From contig NZ_KE384082.1 of the NCBI RefSeq assembly GCF_000423705.1, positions 308,843 to 372,842 on the forward strand: a stretch of 64,000 nucleotides of DNA. The letters run 5' to 3'. This document shows positions 3,729-15,482 of the stretch, in pieces. Origin of the DNA: Stappia stellulata DSM 5886. GTDB taxonomy: Bacteria; Pseudomonadota; Alphaproteobacteria; Rhizobiales; Stappiaceae. A program made the position numbers and the translations under genes. The notes under the pieces are model-generated. The model was not told where the DNA came from, ran no database searches, and saw nothing but the letters and a program-made list of their open reading frames with translations. Every line of letters starts with the position of its first letter. Positions within the stretch are counted from its first letter, which is position 1.

Positions 3729-5155
3729 GAGGCCCCACCGCTGGTCTTGCTCTCGAGCGCCCGGGCGATGGCGTCCGGCAGCACCTGCGCCCATTGCGAG
3801 ATGCTTCCCGCGCCAAGACACACCACATAGTCGCCGGGCGAGGCGATGCCCGCGATGCAGCCGGCAAGATCGCCCTCACCCTCGATGGTGTGGACGTTGC
3901 GGTGGCCGCTGGCGCGGATGCCGTTGGCAAGCGCGCCGTGATCGATGCCCGCGCTCGGCTGTTCCCCGGCGGCATAGACGGGCGCGCAGATCACGTGATC
4001 GGCATCGTTGAAACAGCCGGAAAACTCGTCGAAGAGGCTTTCCAGCCGCGTGTAACGGTGCGGTTGCACGACAGCGATGACCTCGCCGGTGGCGACGGCC
4101 CGGGCGGCGGCCAGAACCGCGCGGATCTCCACCGGGTGATGGGCATAGTCGTCGAAGACATCGATGCCGCCGGCGTTGCCGGTGTGGGTGAACCGCCGCT
4201 TCACGCCGCCGAAGCTTGCGAGGCCCTGGCGGATGCGCGATGCATCGATGCCCAGTTTCCACGCCACGGCGACGGCGGCCACCGCGTTGGACACGTTGTG
4301 AAGGCCCGGCATCGGCAGCGTCAGGCTTTCGATAACCTCGCTGGTGCCGCTCAGCCGGTCGCGCAATTCCACCGAGAAGATGGAATTCACGCCGCGATTG
4401 GCCAGATCGAAGAAGCGCACGTCCGCCTGGCGGTTTTGCCCGTATGTGATCACCTGCCGGTCCTCGATGCGCCCGACCATCGCCTGGACTTCCGGATGGT
4501 CGAGGCACATCACCGCGAACCCGTAGAAGGGCACGTTCTCCACGAACTGGTGAAAGGCGGAGCGCACGCCCTCGAAGTCGCCGTAATGGTCGAGATGCTC
4601 GGGATCGATGTTGGTCACCACCGCGACATCTGCCGGCAGCTTGACGAAGGTGCCGTCGGACTCATCCGCCTCCACCACCATCCAGTCGCCCTTGCCCATG
4701 CGCGCATTGGTGCCATAGGCGTTGATGATGCCACCGTTGATCACGGTCGGATCGAGTCCGCCGGCATCGAGAAGCGCCGCGATGATCGAGGTGGTCGTGG
4801 TCTTGCCATGAGTGCCGCCGACGGCGATCGCCTGCTTGAAGCGCATCAGCTCCGCAAGCATTTCCGCGCGCCGCACCACCGGCAGGAACTTGTCACGCGC
4901 GGCCGTGAGCTCGGGGTTGTCGCGGCGGATCGCCGACGACACCACGACGACGCGCGCCGTCCCGAGATTTTCGGCGGTATGGCCGACCTTCACCGCGATG
5001 CCCTTTTCGCGCAACCGCTTGACGTTGGCGCTTTCCGACAGATCGGACCCCTGAACGGTGTAGCCGAGCGTGTGCAGCACTTCGGCGATGCCGCTCATGC
5101 CGATGCCTCCGATCCCGATGAAATGAACCGGGCCGATGTCCTGGGGCATCTTCAT
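3725..5155 (-). CDS. murC: UDP-N-acetylmuramate--L-alanine ligase MurC
   Basis: MurC adds L-alanine to UDP-MurNAc, the first step of stem-peptide assembly. The 476 residues begin [20 protein letters not shown], a nucleotide-binding glycine loop typical of MurC. The ATP P-loop GTHGKTTTT is at 114-122. Further Mur-ligase signatures are [18 protein letters not shown] and, in the C-terminal domain, DDYAHHP and QPHRYTR. The ATG at 5153-5155 overlaps the murG stop (ATGA) and has AGGAGA upstream at good spacing. A long in-frame extension upstream lies inside murG and is ignored. Confidence 0.97.
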
Positions 5156-6297
5156 GATGCGTCTCCTGATGATGTGTGTCGCGTATCGGTCGTGCGCAGC
5201 GGCCCGCCGGAGGCGATGTGTTCGGCAAGATCGGCGAGCCGGCGCACCGCGTCGGGGCGGCCGGCGCGTTTCGCGCTGTCCGCAGCCTCCGCAAGACGCC
5301 CGGGGTCCGCCATCAGCTCCGTGACAAGAGCGGCCAGGCGCGCCGGATCGAGTTCGGATTGCGCGACCGGCCAGGCGCCGCCCGCGCGGGCGAGAATATC
5401 GGCATTGCGTCCCTGGTCGTTGTCGAGCGCATGCGGCAAAGGCACCAGAACCGACGGGCGCCCGATCACCGAAAGCTCGCTGACGCTGGAGGCGCCCGAC
5501 CGGCAGACCACCAGATGCGATGCCGCGATTCTCTCTGCCATATCGGGGAAAAACGGCGCGAGTTCGGCAACGATTCCAATTCGTTCGAATGCGCTTCGCA
5601 CCCGGTCGATGTCCTCCGGACGGCACTGCTGCACCAGCCGGATCCGCGCCCGCGTTTCAGCCGGCAGACACTCCAGCGCCGGCGGAAGGCAATCGGAAAA
5701 GAACCGCGCGCCCTGCGACCCGCCGAAGACCAGAAGCTGGAACGCGCCGCCGTCCTGCGGAAGGTCATAGGGTGTTCCGGATGCCGCGATCACCGCATCG
5801 CGCACCGGGTTGCCGGTCTGCACGGTCTTTTGCGGATAGGCGCCGGCCGCCTCGCCGACGAGCGGAAAACTCGTCGCAATGGCACTGACCCGTCCGGCCA
5901 GCATGCGGTTGGCTCGCCCCATCACGGCGTTCGCCTCATGCAGCACGCTCGGCACGCCGGCCAGAAACGCCGCGAACATCGGTGGAAATGTCGGATAGCC
6001 GCCAAAGCCGACCACGGCATCGGGCTTGAGCAGCTTTATCACGCCGCGTGCCTGCCACGTGCCGCGCGCCAGCCTGTAGGCGGTGCGCGCCAGCGCGACC
6101 GGATTGCGCCCGGCAAGCGTCGCCGACGAAATCACATGAACATTGCGCGCCGGGAAATCCGCGCCATAGGCGCCGACCCGCTGGTCGGTCGCCAGCTCCA
6201 CGACATGCCCGCGCCGGATCAGCTCGGCGGCAAGCGCCTGGGCCGGAAACAGATGGCCGCCGGTTCCGCCGGCGGTGAGGAGAAAGGTCTGTGCCAT
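5152..6297 (-). CDS. murG: UDP-GlcNAc:lipid I N-acetylglucosaminyltransferase MurG
   Basis: MurG is the membrane-associated glycosyltransferase that turns lipid I into lipid II on the inner face of the cytoplasmic membrane. The 381 residues begin with the glycine-rich acceptor loop [18 protein letters not shown]. They include [10 protein letters not shown] and [12 protein letters not shown] in the N-domain. The UDP-GlcNAc site [13 protein letters not shown] and [25 protein letters not shown] are in the C-domain. It starts 8 bp after ftsW and couples to murC by an ATGA overlap. Confidence 0.97.
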
Positions 6298-8876: not shown

Positions 8877-9962
8877 TCACCTCAGCTTCAGCGTTGCAAG
8901 CCCGACCAGCGCCAGCACCACGGCGATGATCCAGAAACGGATCACCACCTGGCTTTCGGTCCAGCCGAGATGCTCGAAATGATGGTGGATCGGCGCCATC
9001 TTGAAGACGCGCTTGCCGGTGAGCTTGAAGGAGGCGACCTGCACGATTACCGAGACCGCTTCCAGCACGAAAAGGCCGCCGATGATGGCGAGCACCACCT
9101 CGTGCTTGGTGGCGACCGCAATGGCACCCAGCATGCCGCCGAGCGCCAGCGAGCCGGTGTCACCCATGAAGATCGCCGCCGGCGGCGCGTTGAACCACAG
9201 GAAGCCGAGCCCCGCCCCGATCACCGCGCCGCACAGGACGGCGAGTTCGCCGGCGCCCGGAACGTGGTGGATCTGGAGATACTCCGAAAACACCGCGTTG
9301 CCCGTCAGATAGGCGATCAGGCCGAAGGAGGCGGACGCGATCATCACCGGCACGATGGCCAGACCGTCCAGACCGTCGGTCAGATTGACGGCATTGCCCG
9401 CCCCGACGACGACGAAGGCCGCGAAGGGAATGAAGAAGATCCCGAGGTTGATCGCGAGATCCTTGAAGAAGGGAAAACCGATGGATGTTCCGTAGACATC
9501 GCCCTCGAGCAGCGTAACGCAAAAGGCCGCCGTTCCGGCGATGACGAATTCGAGGCCGAGGCGCATCCGCCCGCTGAATCCCTTGTGCGAGGCCTTCGCG
9601 ACCTTGAGGAAGTCGTCATAGAAACCGATCAGGCCGAAGCAGACGGTCACGCCGAGAACGATCCACGTGTAGGGGTTGAGAAGATTGGCCCACAGCAGCG
9701 TCGCCACGAGCATCCCCGACAGGATCATCAGCCCGCCCATCGTCGGCGTGCCCTTCTTGGTCAGGAGATGACTTTGCGGCCCGTCGGCGCGGATCGGCTG
9801 TCCATGCCCCTGGCGCGAACGCAGGGAGTTGATGATCATCGGCCCGAACAGGAAGATGAACAGCAGTGCCGTCATGATCGCGCCGCCGGTTCGGAACGTG
9901 ATGTAACGAAACACGTTGAGCGCGGAAAACTGATCGGCGAATTCGACGAGAAAATACAGCAT
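8877..9962 (-). CDS. mraY: Phospho-N-acetylmuramoyl-pentapeptide-transferase MraY
   Basis: MraY is the polytopic inner-membrane enzyme that transfers phospho-MurNAc-pentapeptide to undecaprenyl phosphate, forming lipid I. The 361 residues have about ten membrane segments. Family motifs are [12 protein letters not shown] near 90, FYDDFLKV with the catalytic aspartates, the [13 protein letters not shown] stretch, and [12 protein letters not shown]. The cytoplasmic histidine motif [12 protein letters not shown] is also present. It starts 8 bp after murEF and ends 4 bp before murD. Confidence 0.97.
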
Positions 9963-9970
9963 CGGGCGTC

Positions 9971-12900
9971 CTATTCGGCTCCGTCGTCCTCGACGGGAAA
10001 TTCGCGCTTGAGCGCCTCGACGAGCGGCCCCATCCGGGTGCCGAGCGACCCCTTGATCATGATCACGTCACCGGGGCGCACATCCTCCATAAGCAGCGGG
10101 CGCAGGCTCGCCGCTTCTTCGGAATAAGCGCCGCGCAAGTGCTTCGGCAAGAGGGTCCAGAGTTCGTGCATTCGCGCGCCGACGCAATAGACGAGATCCG
10201 CGTCGCTTTCCGTGACCGGTCCGAGCAGGTCGGCATGCAGGCGTCCTTCCGCCTCGCCGAGCTCGAGCATGTCGCCGAGCACAGCGATGCGCCGGCCGGG
10301 CCGCGAAATCGGCGTCTCCTTCAAAAGGGAGAGCGCCGCCCGCACGGAGGCCGGATTGGCATTGTAGCTTTCATCGATCACCGTCGCCTGCCCCTCCGGC
10401 AAGCGCAGGCTCACCTGCGCGCCGCGCCCCTTGGGGGCACGAAAGCCCGCAAGCGCGAGGCCCGCGAGCGCGAGGTCGCCGCCGAGTTCCGACACCGCCG
10501 CAAGCACCGCAAGGCTGTTGGTCACCAGATGCAGGCCCGGCGCGCCCACCTTGAAGGTGATCGGCTGGTCGAAAATCTGCCCGGAGATGGAGCTGCAGGC
10601 GACCTGCGCGGAGACCTTTTCGGCCTGCGCGTCGGCGGGCCCGTCGCGCCCGAAGGTGGCGATGCGCCTGACGCCGGCGCTCTTGGCCAAAAAGGTCAGC
10701 AGGTCGATCTGATCGTTGTCACGGTTGAGCAGCACCAGCCCGCCCGGCTCGAGCCCGAGAAAGATCTCGCCCTTGGCCTGCGCGATCCGCTCGACCGAGC
10801 CGAAGAACTCCAGATGCACCGCCGCGACCGTGGTGATGACGGCAACATGCGGACGCACCATCTGCACGAGCGGCGTGATTTCGCCGGCGTGGTTCATCCC
10901 GATCTCGAAGACACCGAAGGCGGTGTCCGCCGGCATGCGCGCCAGCGTCAAGGGCACGCCCCAATGATTGTTGAAGGAGGCCACCGGCGCGTGGGTCTTG
11001 CCCGACGGGTCCAGCGCCAGCTTCAGCATGTCCTTGGTGCTGGTCTTGCCGACCGAGCCGGTGACCGCGACGATCCGCGCCCGGCTGCGCGCCCGTGACG
11101 CCCGCGCCAGATCGCGCAGCCCCTCCAGTGCGTCCTCGACAATCAGATAGCGCCCCGTCTTGGGCAGATCGGGACGGCGGGCCTCGGCCACGATCGCCAG
11201 CGCCGCGCCGGCCTCAAGGGCGGCGCCCGCGAAATCGTGACCGTCGAAACGTTCGCCGACAATCGCCAGAAACGCCTCTCCCGGCTCGATCGTGCGACTG
11301 TCGATGGAAAGACCGTGGATCCGCGTGTCGGCGTCCACGCCCTCGATGCGTCCGCCCGTGGCCGCGACCATTTCCTCCAGCGTCCACAAGGGGCGCGCGT
11401 CGTCGGGCTCGGGAAGCGGCTCGAACGACTGCGACACCGGCTCGGTCGCAGCCATTGCAGCCGCCGCCGCAGCGGCAGGGAGCACCGCATCCGCAATATC
11501 AAGCGGCGCGCCGGTCCGGTCTTCCGCGTCGGTCCGGTCTTCCAGGTCGGTCCGGTCTTCCGGGTCGGTCTGATCCTCCGCGTCGGTCTCGGTCGGCTGC
11601 GAAAGGGCGTCGACGTTCTCTTCGCGGAGTTCCGTTTCCTCCGCCTCGCCAGGCTCGCCCTCACCGATACCGGTCGCCAAGACATCGGGTTCGTCGACCT
11701 CGGTGTCGGTGCGGATGTCGGCCTCGGCTTCCACCTCGCCTGGCTCGCCCGCGTTTTCGTTGTCGTCTTCGCCATCCGCCGCCCGCGTATCGGAAACGCC
11801 CGCGTCCTCGCCATCGGCGAACAGGGCATCGTCTACGCTAGCGGCACTGACCGCGTCATCCGCATCGACTTCGCCGTCCGCTTCGCCGACGACGTCGGCG
11901 GCGGGCCCGGTATCGTCTTGCGGGACCGCGCCGGCATCGGCGAAGATCCCTTCGTCGGTCTGCCCGGGTTCCGCAGCTGCGGCGGGCACGTTGCCCTCGT
12001 TTCGGCCGATGTCGCCGCCGAGTTCATCGAAAAGAGCTGCCGCGAGTTCATCGTCCAGCGACGTGATGTTCGCGTCGAGGCCCTCTGCAGACGTCTCTTC
12101 CGCAGCCTTTTCCCCGACCGCAACCTCCCGGTGCTCCCGGGGTGCCTCGCCGGACAGCAGGGTTGCAAAGTCGAGCTCGAAATCTCCCCCCTCGTCCTCG
12201 GAGGCGGCGAACAGGTCGCTCTCCGCGATGGCGGCAAGGGCATCGCGCGCGACCGCATGATCGGAAAACGGAAGAACCTCGGTGCCGACGGTCTGCCCCG
12301 GCTCGTGTCCCTTGCCGGCGATACACAGCACGTCGCCTGCCTGCAACATGCCGACCGCGGCCTCGATGGCATCCCGCCGATCGCCGATTTCCAGCGCGCC
12401 GGGTGCGGCCTCGACGATTGCGGCGCGGATCGCGGCCGGATTCTCGCTGCGCGGATTGTCGTCGGTGACGATCACGACGTCCGCCTGACGCGCAGCGGCC
12501 GCCCCCATCAGGGACCGCTTGCCCGCATCGCGGTCGCCGCCGGCGCCGAAGACCACAATCAGCCGGCCCTTTGTAAAGGGACGCAGCGCGGCAAGCGCCG
12601 TGTCGAGCGCATCCGGCTTGTGGGCGTAGTCGACGAAGACCAGCGCGCCATCGTCGCTCTCGCCGACAAGTTCCAGCCGTCCCGGCGCACCTTCGAGATT
12701 TTCCAGCGCCTCCAGCGCCACATCGGTCTTGACGCCACCGGCAATCGCCAGGCCCGCCGCGATCAGCGCGTTGGAGACCTGGAACCTCCCGGCCAGCGGC
12801 AGCCGGATCTCGCGCGGCCCGGCGTCCGTCTCCAGGCTCAGGATCTGGACGAACCCGTCGTGACGAATGTCCCTGAGCGCGATGTCCGACCCGCCGTCGC

Positions 12901-13684
12901 CGACGGTGAAGAGCGGCAACCCGCGATCGCGCGCCACCGCCATCACCCGGTCGGCATAGGGCGCCTCCGGCTCCAGAACGACAGGGCGACCATCCGGAAG
13001 CAGCGTGTCGAACAGGCGCAGCTTGGCAGCGAGATAGTCTTCGACGCCCGCGTGATAATCGAGATGATCGCGCCCGAGATTGGTGAACCCCGCCGCCGCG
13101 AAGCGCACGCCGTCGAGCCGGCGCTGGTCGAGACCATGGCTGGAGGCTTCCAGGGCGGCATGGGTAATGCGGTCATGCGCGAGGCGCGCCAGGGTTTCGT
13201 GCAACGAGACCGGGTCGGGCGTCGTCAACCCGCCGTAATTCGCACCGGCGCTCGTCACCGTTCCGATGGTGCCGAGGCTTGCCGCCTTGTTGCCGGCGGC
13301 GGCAAAGATCTGCCGCGCAAAGACCGCAACCGACGTCTTGCCGCTGGTTCCGGTCACCGCGACAACCGTGTCGGGCTGACCGGCGTGGAACCGCGCGGCC
13401 ATCAGCGCCAGGGTACGGCGCGGATCGTCGCTGACGATGACGGGAAAGCCGTCGCCAAGGCTTGAAAGGGTTTCAGCCGGCACATCCGCGCCGACAAGCA
13501 CGGCGCCCGCTCCGGCGGTGCGTGCGTCTTCGATAAACCGGGTTCCGTCGCTCGTCGCGCCCTTCAGGGCAGCGAAGAGGTATCCGTGCGAGACCGTTCG
13601 GCTGTCGGCGGACAATCCGGCGATTTCGGTTTCGAACTCGGGTGCGGCGAGCACCTGTTCGCCGGCGAGGTCCTTGAGCAGCAT
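9971..13684 (-). CDS. murEF: Bifunctional MurE-MurF ligase with long acidic linker
   Basis: One uninterrupted 1237-residue frame carries two consecutive stem-peptide ligases. Residues 1-488 are MurE: P-loop TGTSGKTS at 111-118 and DDNPRSE near 409, the DNPR signature of enzymes that add meso-diaminopimelate. Residues 765-1237 are MurF, which adds D-Ala-D-Ala: P-loop TGSVGKTST at 875-883, [11 protein letters not shown] and [11 protein letters not shown]. Between them, about residues 489-764 are Asp/Glu/Ala/Gly-rich with few hydrophobics. They include four DxEDxT hexapeptides (701-724) and a poly-Ala run. I chose the ATG at 13682-13684 because it begins MLLKDLAG, the family N-terminus; no strong ribosome site is visible. 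It lies 82 bp after ftsI and 8 bp before mraY. Both active sites look intact. Confidence 0.96.
11513..11584 (-). repeat. Four 18-bp tandem repeats in the murEF linker
   Basis: Four adjacent 18-bp units (starting at 11513, 11531, 11549 and 11567 on the plus strand) share the core GGTCCGGTCTTCC. The first three are nearly identical and the fourth is degenerate. In the coding frame they give the hexapeptides [18 protein letters not shown] and DAEDRT. Because the unit is a multiple of three, copy number can change without breaking the fusion. Confidence 0.9.
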
Positions 13685-13766: not shown

Positions 13767-15482
13767 TCAGTAGGCGATTGAAACGGTCTCCGTTTTATCT
13801 CCGAATTTGGGCAAAACACCCAATGTGGGGGCAATGCGCCGAATAATCGCGGATGTCGTGGGCGCGGTGTTCAGGCCGGCGGTGGCGCCGACGCCCTCGC
13901 GCTCGGATTTGGGTTCGTCGAGCACGACCAGCACGACGTAGCGCGGATCGTCCATCGGAAAGGCGGACAGGAAGGAGTTGCGACGCTTGCCGTTCACATA
14001 GCGGCCGTTCTCGATCTTCTCCGCCGTACCGGTCTTGCCGCCGACCACATAACCGGGAACCTCGGCGCGACGGCCGGATCCTTTCAGCACGTTGAGACGG
14101 AACAGGTAGCGCATGATCTCGCTCGTCTTGGGATCGATCACCTGTTGGGCGAGCTTTCTCGCCTCCGCCTCGCTGCGCGGCGTGAACGTCGGGGGAATGA
14201 GCCGTCCGCCGTTGACAAGTGCGGCGGTTGCCACCGCCGTCTGCATCGGGGTGACGGAAATGCCGTGACCGAAGGAGATTGTCATCGCGGCAAGTTCGTT
14301 CCACTTCGGCGGCAGCAGCGGCGTCGCGACCTCCGGAAGCTCCGTCTCCATGCGCGTGGTCAGCCCGATGCGCTCCATGAAAGCCTGCTGCGTATCGACA
14401 CCCGCGGCCAGCATCATCTTCGCCGTTCCGATGTTGGACGAATAGATGAAGGTCTCCGCGACCGAGAGAATGCGGCGCTTTCCGTAAAAGTCGTTGATCG
14501 TGCGGCGGCCGACGCGCAAGGGACGCGTGGCGTCGAAACTGTCGTCCATCGTCACCTTGCCGCTGTCGAGCGCCATGGCGACGGTAAAGCCCTTGAACAC
14601 GGACCCCATCTCGAACACACCGCCGGTGGCACGGTTGAGGCGGTTCTTCTCCAGTGCCTGCGCCCGGTCGTTGGGATCGAAGTCGGGGAGCGACGACATG
14701 CCAACGACTTCGCCTGTGTGCACGTCGAGCACGATGCCGATGCCGGCGATTGCCCGGTAACGCTCCAGCGCTTTCGCCAGTTCGTCGCGCACCACGTGCT
14801 GGACCCGAAGATCCACGGAGAGGCTGACGCCCTCCATCGGACGGCGGTCGCTCGCGAACCCGAGTTCCTGGAGATCGCCGAGCCAGGCCTTGTCGACGGC
14901 AAGCTCCATCCCGGAGATGCCCTTGTTGTCGACATTGACCGAGCCGACGATGTGGCTTGCGGTCGGGCCGCCCGGATAAAAGCGGCTGTTTTCCTCCAGG
15001 AAACCGATGCCCGGAATGCCGAGATCGTGGAGCCTTGTGCGCTGGCGCGGTGTCAGTTCGCGCTTCAACCAGATGAAGCCGGCATTGCTGGCGAGCCGCC
15101 GGCGCACGGCGTCGGTTCCAAGGTCAGGCAGAACGCTGGCGATGCCTTCCAGTGCCTCGTCGACATCGATGATCTTGCGCGGCTCCGCATAGAGCGAGGC
15201 GGTCTTGATGTCGGTCGCTAGGATCTGGCCGTTGCGGTCGAGGAGATCCGGACGCGAGGCGGCAACACTGTCCTGGGCCGAGATGTAGGAGGCGGTCTCC
15301 GCCTCCTCGCTCATCCCGAGCATGATCAGCCGGCCGCCGATGGCGAGATAGACCAGCGCGAAAACGCCCATGGCCATATAGACGCGCGAACGCACGGCCC
15401 GCGTGGAGGGGCCGCGCGGCACATGCCGCTCGCCGACCGTACGGCGCTGGAGAAAGGAGACGGGCTGATCGTTCTTCGTCAT
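13767..15482 (-). CDS. ftsI: Peptidoglycan D,D-transpeptidase FtsI (PBP3)
   Basis: FtsI is the septal class B penicillin-binding protein that cross-links new peptidoglycan with FtsW. The 571 residues have a cytoplasmic tail and one membrane anchor at about 34-56. A PBP dimer domain beginning RPDLLDRNGQILATD follows, then the transpeptidase domain. The three catalytic motifs are visible: SVFK at 294-297, SSN at 348-350 and KTGT at 483-486. It lies 10 bp after ftsL and 82 bp before murEF, the longest gap inside the cluster. Confidence 0.97.
   Translation of the reverse strand: MTKNDQPVSFLQRRTVGERHVPRGPSTRAVRSRVYMAMGVFALVYLAIGGRLIMLGMSEEAETASYISAQDSVAASRPDLLDRNGQILATDIKTASLYAEPRKIIDVDEALEGIASVLPDLGTDAVRRRLASNAGFIWLKRELTPRQRTRLHDLGIPGIGFLEENSRFYPGGPTASHIVGSVNVDNKGISGMELAVDKAWLGDLQELGFASDRRPMEGVSLSVDLRVQHVVRDELAKALERYRAIAGIGIVLDVHTGEVVGMSSLPDFDPNDRAQALEKNRLNRATGGVFEMGSVFKGFTVAMALDSGKVTMDDSFDATRPLRVGRRTINDFYGKRRILSVAETFIYSSNIGTAKMMLAAGVDTQQAFMERIGLTTRMETELPEVATPLLPPKWNELAAMTISFGHGISVTPMQTAVATAALVNGGRLIPPTFTPRSEAEARKLAQQVIDPKTSEIMRYLFRLNVLKGSGRRAEVPGYVVGGKTGTAEKIENGRYVNGKRRNSFLSAFPMDDPRYVVLVVLDEPKSEREGVGATAGLNTAPTTSAIIRRIAPTLGVLPKFGDKTETVSIAY

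Follow-up and report, generated by a model that had tools for sequence, protein, structure and literature searches.

What does a long, strongly acidic segment do between two consecutive enzymes of cell wall synthesis in certain marine bacteria, and how often has such an arrangement arisen? The question is raised by murEF, a gene in the window (the whole stretch of 64,000 nucleotides that was analysed) that carries in one reading frame both MurE and MurF, the ligases that make consecutive peptidoglycan precursors.

The murEF gene and its two ligase halves

The translated murEF frame begins with an ATG at position 13684, extends over 1237 residues and contains its sole stop codon at the end (Table 1). 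The surroundings are those of an ordinary dcw cluster on the minus strand, with rsmH, ftsL, an ftsI-type gene, murEF, mraY, murD, ftsW, murG and murC; the FtsI and FtsW assignments, whose scores are below the cut-offs, were made partly by position. Five matches were obtained in the genome with the Mur_ligase_M domain. Two are the halves of murEF, two fall in the cluster's own murC and murD, and the fifth is on contig 5, so that this search found no second murE or murF beside murEF. Both ligases are in a single stop-free frame in all 31 complete sequences, the window's included, from three genera of Stappiaceae. As the 30 further complete sequences keep the frame open, the murEF frame is not an accident of assembly. 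Two additional murEF sequences, those of G001 and G064, are interrupted by contig ends and stand outside the 31. In a tblastn search of plasmid records, none covered 80% of the MurEF protein, and E. coli genomes gave no match in a near search.

Table 1. Features of the murEF locus, in positions of the window
Feature	Positions	Strand	Basis or remark
Upstream FtsI/PBP-type gene	13767..15482	minus	transpeptidase-family matches all below cut-offs; FtsI by position
murEF	9971..13684	minus	1237 codons and stop; start residue conserved in 5-row alignment
MurE part, residues 1-488, meso-diaminopimelate-adding type	12221..13684	minus	NF001124
MurE putative P-loop, residues 112-118 (GTSGKTS)	13331..13351	minus	G112, T113, G115, K116, S118 invariant in 29 rows
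MurE DNPR motif, residues 409-412	12449..12460	minus	invariant in 29 rows
Acidic linker, residues 489-762 by homology, 274 residues	11399..12220	minus	D+E 31%, K+R 4%, net charge -75
Weakly predicted helix in linker, residues 543-554 (within [14 protein letters not shown])	12023..12058	minus	DSSP, both models; block pLDDT about 46 and 51
MurF part, residues 763-1237	9974..11398	minus	NF010693, pLDDT, Foldseek
MurF putative P-loop, residues 876-883 (GSVGKTST)	11036..11059	minus	G876, S877, G879, K880, T881 invariant in 29 rows
mraY, downstream of murEF after an 8-base gap	8877..9962	minus	TIGR00445, 404 bits against a cut-off of 192
murG, after murD and ftsW	5152..6297	minus	TIGR01133, 260 bits against a cut-off of 250

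The NCBIfam profile of MurE (NF001124) matches residues 13-487 with 715.4 bits against a cut-off of 476, and that of MurF (NF010693) matches residues 764-1234 with 731.1 bits against 544. Pfam finds two Mur ligase middle domains and two C-terminal domains in the chain. The first-pass annotation had described one frame of 1237 residues with a complete-looking MurE and MurF in the order of the pathway, and both parts of this description agree with the single terminal stop, the open frame of the 31 sequences and the full-length profile matches. The NCBIfam family of bifunctional MurE/MurF proteins, NF008896, scores 830.3 bits, below its equivalog cut-off of 1023; although MurEF is not filed as a member, it is predicted to work like the proteins of this family. 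The motifs that we take to be P-loops are present in both halves, and we assume a role of the DNPR motif of MurE in DAP specificity and, likewise, the role of the P-loop lysine.

The protein was modelled with AlphaFold2 in two overlapping pieces, residues 1-790 and 485-1237, with 29 alignment rows each. The mean pLDDT of MurE is 80-98 in most ten-residue blocks of residues 1-490, with three blocks at 69-77, and that of MurF is mostly above 90. The best Foldseek match of the second piece is the MurF structure 4qf5 (E 1.8e-39); PDB 8f5d, by its title a MurE-MurF architecture, is also found.

A side observation concerns the charge of the MurE core. Its means lie between -17.7 and -24.7 in the fused genera of Stappiaceae, which makes it more acidic there than in the unfused genera, with means between -5.9 and -12; the cores of the outgroups f13 (-20) and f18 (-16) are acidic as well.

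The acidic linker in Stappiaceae

A long acidic joint, low in hydrophobic residues, had been placed by the first-pass annotation at 11393-12220 (about 276 residues), and homology gives a segment of 274 residues with nearly the same limits (Table 1). Among the window's frames of at least 150 residues, the most acidic stretch of 100 residues (net -36) is found in this linker; the runner-up (net -22) belongs to a putative plus-strand frame opposite mraY. A prediction of the linker's disorder and structure had been proposed, together with the idea that the joint lets the two enzymes move freely. In the AlphaFold models the ligases fold with high confidence, and the pLDDT of residues 495-758 is below 50 almost throughout in both pieces. 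The linker is predicted to be disordered, and such freedom of movement would fit this prediction.

The distribution of the fusion was followed in scans of 60 relatives and the window's own genome, in a family scan of 87 genomes from seven genera, and in fetched stretches that were read individually. The genera are labelled g1 (the window's genus) to g7; g2 includes Roseibium, g4 Pannonibacter, g6 holds Pseudovibrio, and g7 includes G019, which matches Stappia sediminis. The 31 complete fused sequences comprise 13 from g1, with the window, 3 from g7 and 15 from g6. The MurF frames of the other four genera are of separate size, at most 637 residues in all 54 genomes (g2 45, g3 1, g4 5, g5 3), in line with the earlier remark that most relatives have separate murE and murF genes.

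The linker is 116-691 residues long in 30 of the 31 sequences, with a D+E fraction of 0.23-0.40 and a K+R fraction of 0.01-0.06. The exception is G065, a member of g6 with just 16 residues between the ligases; the other 14 of the 15 complete g6 sequences carry a long acidic linker. The long spacer is therefore not indispensable. Tandem tracts of the types (EA)n, (EP)n and (AD)n occur in the linkers. The linker of G063 (L166), with its 691 residues, contains a very long (EA)n tract. A DNA pattern for (EA)4 has 90 overlapping hits in G063 and 7 in G018, all of which, among the matches listed, are within the murEF linker; those of G063 span positions 845140-845696 of its contig 1, inside murEF. 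Elsewhere, one hit each is found in 7 of 14 other genomes, that of the window's genome being outside murEF. The reversed pattern (90 hits in G063, 8 in G018) is no control in these two genomes because such a tract is expected to match both ways; it has three hits in G019.

In ten close pairs, not all of them independent because some have a member in common, the linker has a dN/dS of 0.13-0.42, against 0.02-0.11 for the ligases. Charge-changing replacements in the linker number 90 of 334 in nine pairs (27% against 49% expected, P = 5e-16), where the expectation was taken from the codons and the synonymous spectrum, and codons with more than one changed base were left out. Changes to or from K or R alone are not significantly depleted (25 of 334, 7.5% against 10.2%, P = 0.12). 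The ratio that expresses this bias against charge changes is 0.39 in the linker and 0.50 in the ligases, which served as the comparison set; since the ligases show the same bias, only part of it is special to the linker. The avoidance of charge changes is a general habit of proteins, and the linker's ratio lies only a little below the ligase value. On these comparisons, the composition of the linker tends to be kept while its sequence drifts.

A shared linker motif was considered as a common element and rejected, as neither of two motifs is found beyond shuffled sequences in the linkers of the Pseudovibrio group. An unsupervised motif of 13 residues, trained on nine g1 and g7 linkers, was not found in eight linkers of this group (P 0.14-0.85); it had beaten 12 shuffled training sets, the shuffles having been given fewer starts and two of the nine linkers being close relatives. 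A helix motif built by hand, and chosen after the sequences had been seen, failed in the Pseudovibrio group (Fisher P = 0.24 over six linkers; one of eight at P 0.049), and this comparison found no sharing of the helix at residues 543-554 with Pseudovibrio. In three g1 linkers outside its build set, the hand-built motif gave P values of 0.17, 0.14 and 0.018. That no shared motif was found fits selection on composition. The local density of hydrophobic residues is not above that of shuffled linkers in 18 of 19 cases, the exception being G071 (P 0.009); spacings of 4 and 5 between hydrophobic residues are in excess (z 5.7 and 3.2).

Other fusions and the number of fusion events

Fusions of MurE and MurF are known from other bacteria. 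The enzyme of Bordetella pertussis, according to those parts of its description that were consulted (PMC6420597), is likewise one chain in pathway order; it is an elongated, flexible molecule in which both halves are active, and it interacts with MurG. Its joint has about 20 residues, against the 274 strongly acidic ones of the window's MurEF. The same parts of that paper name Pseudovibrio among the fused genera, contain no mention of the length or charge of the Pseudovibrio linker, and state as an open question whether the Mur ligases act as a complex. A search of the PMC literature, into which subscription journals largely do not fall, turned up a single paper centred on a MurE-MurF fusion, the one on B. 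pertussis, and nothing on a long acidic MurE-MurF linker. While the fusion itself was already known, the conserved acidic spacer, predicted to be disordered, and its probable repeated evolution seem to be new.

The structure of murE and murF was compared across the order Hyphomicrobiales, as had been proposed for this locus, in a sample of 199 genomes (184 matched), where MurF frames longer than 900 residues outside the family were taken as candidates. Among the matches listed there are 23, of which 22 were read. Nine of these are chance frames, whereas in 13 MurE and MurF are truly fused, through joints of about 0-18 residues. In a sample of the class (114 genomes, 96 matched), three of six candidates proved to be fusions; the joint is near 0 in two of them, and in the third it has 59 residues and is not acidic. 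In a sample of the phylum (150 genomes, 139 matched), none of six further frames above 800 residues is a MurE-MurF fusion. The census covers frames above these thresholds of 900 (order) and 800 residues (phylum). MurE-MurF fusion thus recurs in Alphaproteobacteria, and among the sampled genomes the long acidic joint was encountered only in Stappiaceae. The 16 other verified alphaproteobacterial fusions resemble MurEF in having both ligases in one frame but differ in their joints of about 0-59 residues, none of which is both longer than 10 residues and acidic; neither the joint of 59 residues nor those of 13-18 are acidic.

The length of an open frame proved to be misleading as evidence of fusion, as MurF often stands in a chance open frame. 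The frames that the whole-protein query gave for G039, G041, G043 and G044 had been counted across stop codons, and an apparent FtsI-MurE-MurF triple frame in G046 is due to chance, its first 680 or so residues resembling out-of-frame sequence. Three loci (L257, L258 and L259, of G419, G467 and G429) carry MurF-like domains on the C-terminal side of frames of 1070-1246 residues that have no MurE; some 600-700 residues ahead of the Mur domains are without a Pfam match at E 0.001, and one of the three also has a PGA_cap domain.

The junctions of the unfused genes bear on the number of events within the family. In 16 of the 54 unfused Stappiaceae genomes the junction was read, and murE and murF overlap in all of them, by ATGA in 15 and by TGATG in one; the outgroups, genus g5 and family f13, have the same ATGA overlap. 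No acidic tail was found on the separate MurE or MurF at these junctions. Unfused murF starts 2-4 codons ahead of an LW that is conserved in MurF, and none of the 31 fused genes has a start codon at that place. Start codons at least five codons before this LW, or after it, are found in most fused genes, and internal initiation within murEF is possible. Each of the 13 complete g1 sequences has an ATG six codons after the L of the LW; in the window this is codon 772 of murEF (11369-11371), which comes straight after GGAGGAA and is a possible internal start.

In the MurEF tree, g6 stands apart from g1 and g7, which together are sisters of the unfused g2, g3 and g4, and the tree of RpoB and DnaE agrees. 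When all fused sequences are forced into one clade, MurEF rejects the arrangement (AU p = 0.010), RpoB and DnaE do not (AU p = 0.137), and RpoB and DnaE with CarB added reject it strongly (AU p = 6e-5). The exact position of g6 varies with the genes used, as the addition of CarB moves it next to g2, g3 and g4. IleS was left out of the trees on account of an apparently divergent copy in g1 (L297-L301), which groups with g5 (support 80 and 67) and not with the genera closest to g1; the copy may have been transferred or be a paralogue.

The best reading of these data, though not a proven one, is that the genes fused twice independently, with an acidic spacer in each case: no usable tree makes the fused lineages sisters, and a later split of a fused gene would need to recreate the overlap. 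A single ancient fusion in the family, whose clade of g1, g7 and g6 was missed by the trees or which was split again in the ancestor of Roseibium, Pannonibacter and their relatives, is rather improbable. It has in its favour that a fusion and a split are as many events as two fusions, that both lineages carry acidic linkers, that RpoB and DnaE by themselves tolerate one fused clade, and that a tree of RpoB grouped g1, g6 and g7, with a support of 35 in a tree flawed by wrong reading frames for some sequences. Yet the unfused genera share their ATGA overlap with g5 and f13, the separate enzymes were read without a leftover acidic tail, and the two other tests reject the clade. The suggestion that the fusion is a lineage marker has to be corrected, since the two groups of the family that carry it are not united as a clade by the usable trees (that of Pseudovibrio, fused as in the window, is placed apart by the gene tree) and fusions with short joints are found in further families of the order.

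A proposed flexible anionic tether

It is possible to describe how the two halves of MurEF might work together. The reading that we favour, with moderate confidence, is that the long polyanionic spacer, disordered as the models predict, is a flexible tether that joins two independently folded ligases and is selected for its composition rather than its sequence. The spacer would hold MurE and MurF at equal numbers and close to each other at high concentration, and would thus make permanent what coupled translation across the ancestral ATGA overlap had achieved. Its charge would keep the chain open and prevent the two ligases from colliding with or adhering to each other. The genes would have fused in two separate lineages, each of which then lengthened its spacer, in part because short repeats, among them (EA)n, (EP)n and (AD)n, expanded.

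Several of the observations would also be expected if, once the genes were fused, any soluble unstructured insert was tolerated, with slippage lengthening it and purifying selection removing only sticky or basic residues, so that the linker has no positive role. The range from 16 to 691 residues within one genus, the tandem tracts, the want of a motif common to the linkers, a charge conservation only mildly above that of the ligases, and hydrophobic clusters whose density does not exceed that of shuffled sequences in 18 of 19 linkers all agree with such a near-neutral expansion. It accounts less readily for the fact that 30 of the 31 linkers stay above 115 residues, or for two lineages having reached the same composition when none of the 16 other fusions has a joint that is both longer than 10 residues and acidic, and it is on balance the less likely course. 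More doubtful still is a recruitment platform, in which the linker would bind basic partners (MurG, MraY or the membrane division machinery) by its charge or by short helices. The interaction of the B. pertussis enzyme, with its joint of about 20 residues, with MurG is in keeping with recruitment (PMC6420597, as consulted in part), as are the weak helix in the two models and the excess of hydrophobic spacings. MurG, however, is not more basic in fused species: its net charge is +3 in the window and +2, +4 and +6 in three fused relatives, against a mean of +5.8 in 69 unfused loci (80 loci compared, with a MurG of sufficient length in 3 of the 4 fused and 69 of the 76 unfused). The motifs of the g1 and g7 linkers are also absent, beyond shuffles, from those of the Pseudovibrio group. 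The earlier proposal that the joint recruits MurG or MraY thus finds no backing here.

A bolder reading goes beyond the tether. A polyanionic disordered region that an essential enzyme pair acquired twice independently could be a selected physical element whose length is set by repeat expansion and not by sequence, for example a charge brush that tunes how the enzymes of the cytoplasmic Mur pathway are spaced, crowded or locally clustered; this we regard as rather improbable. Either way, the natural set of fused genes, with spacers of 16-691 residues, beside related genera with overlapping separate genes makes both tethering and spacer charge testable, and the MurEF linkers offer a clean case for the study of composition-level selection on disordered linkers.

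Another enzyme of the pathway shows an unusual charge in some of the fused species. The MurD of two Pseudovibrio genomes (L067 and L070) is unusually acidic, with net charges of -31 and -26, whereas 70 unfused relatives have a mean of -10; in two other fused loci MurD is ordinary (-9 and -11).
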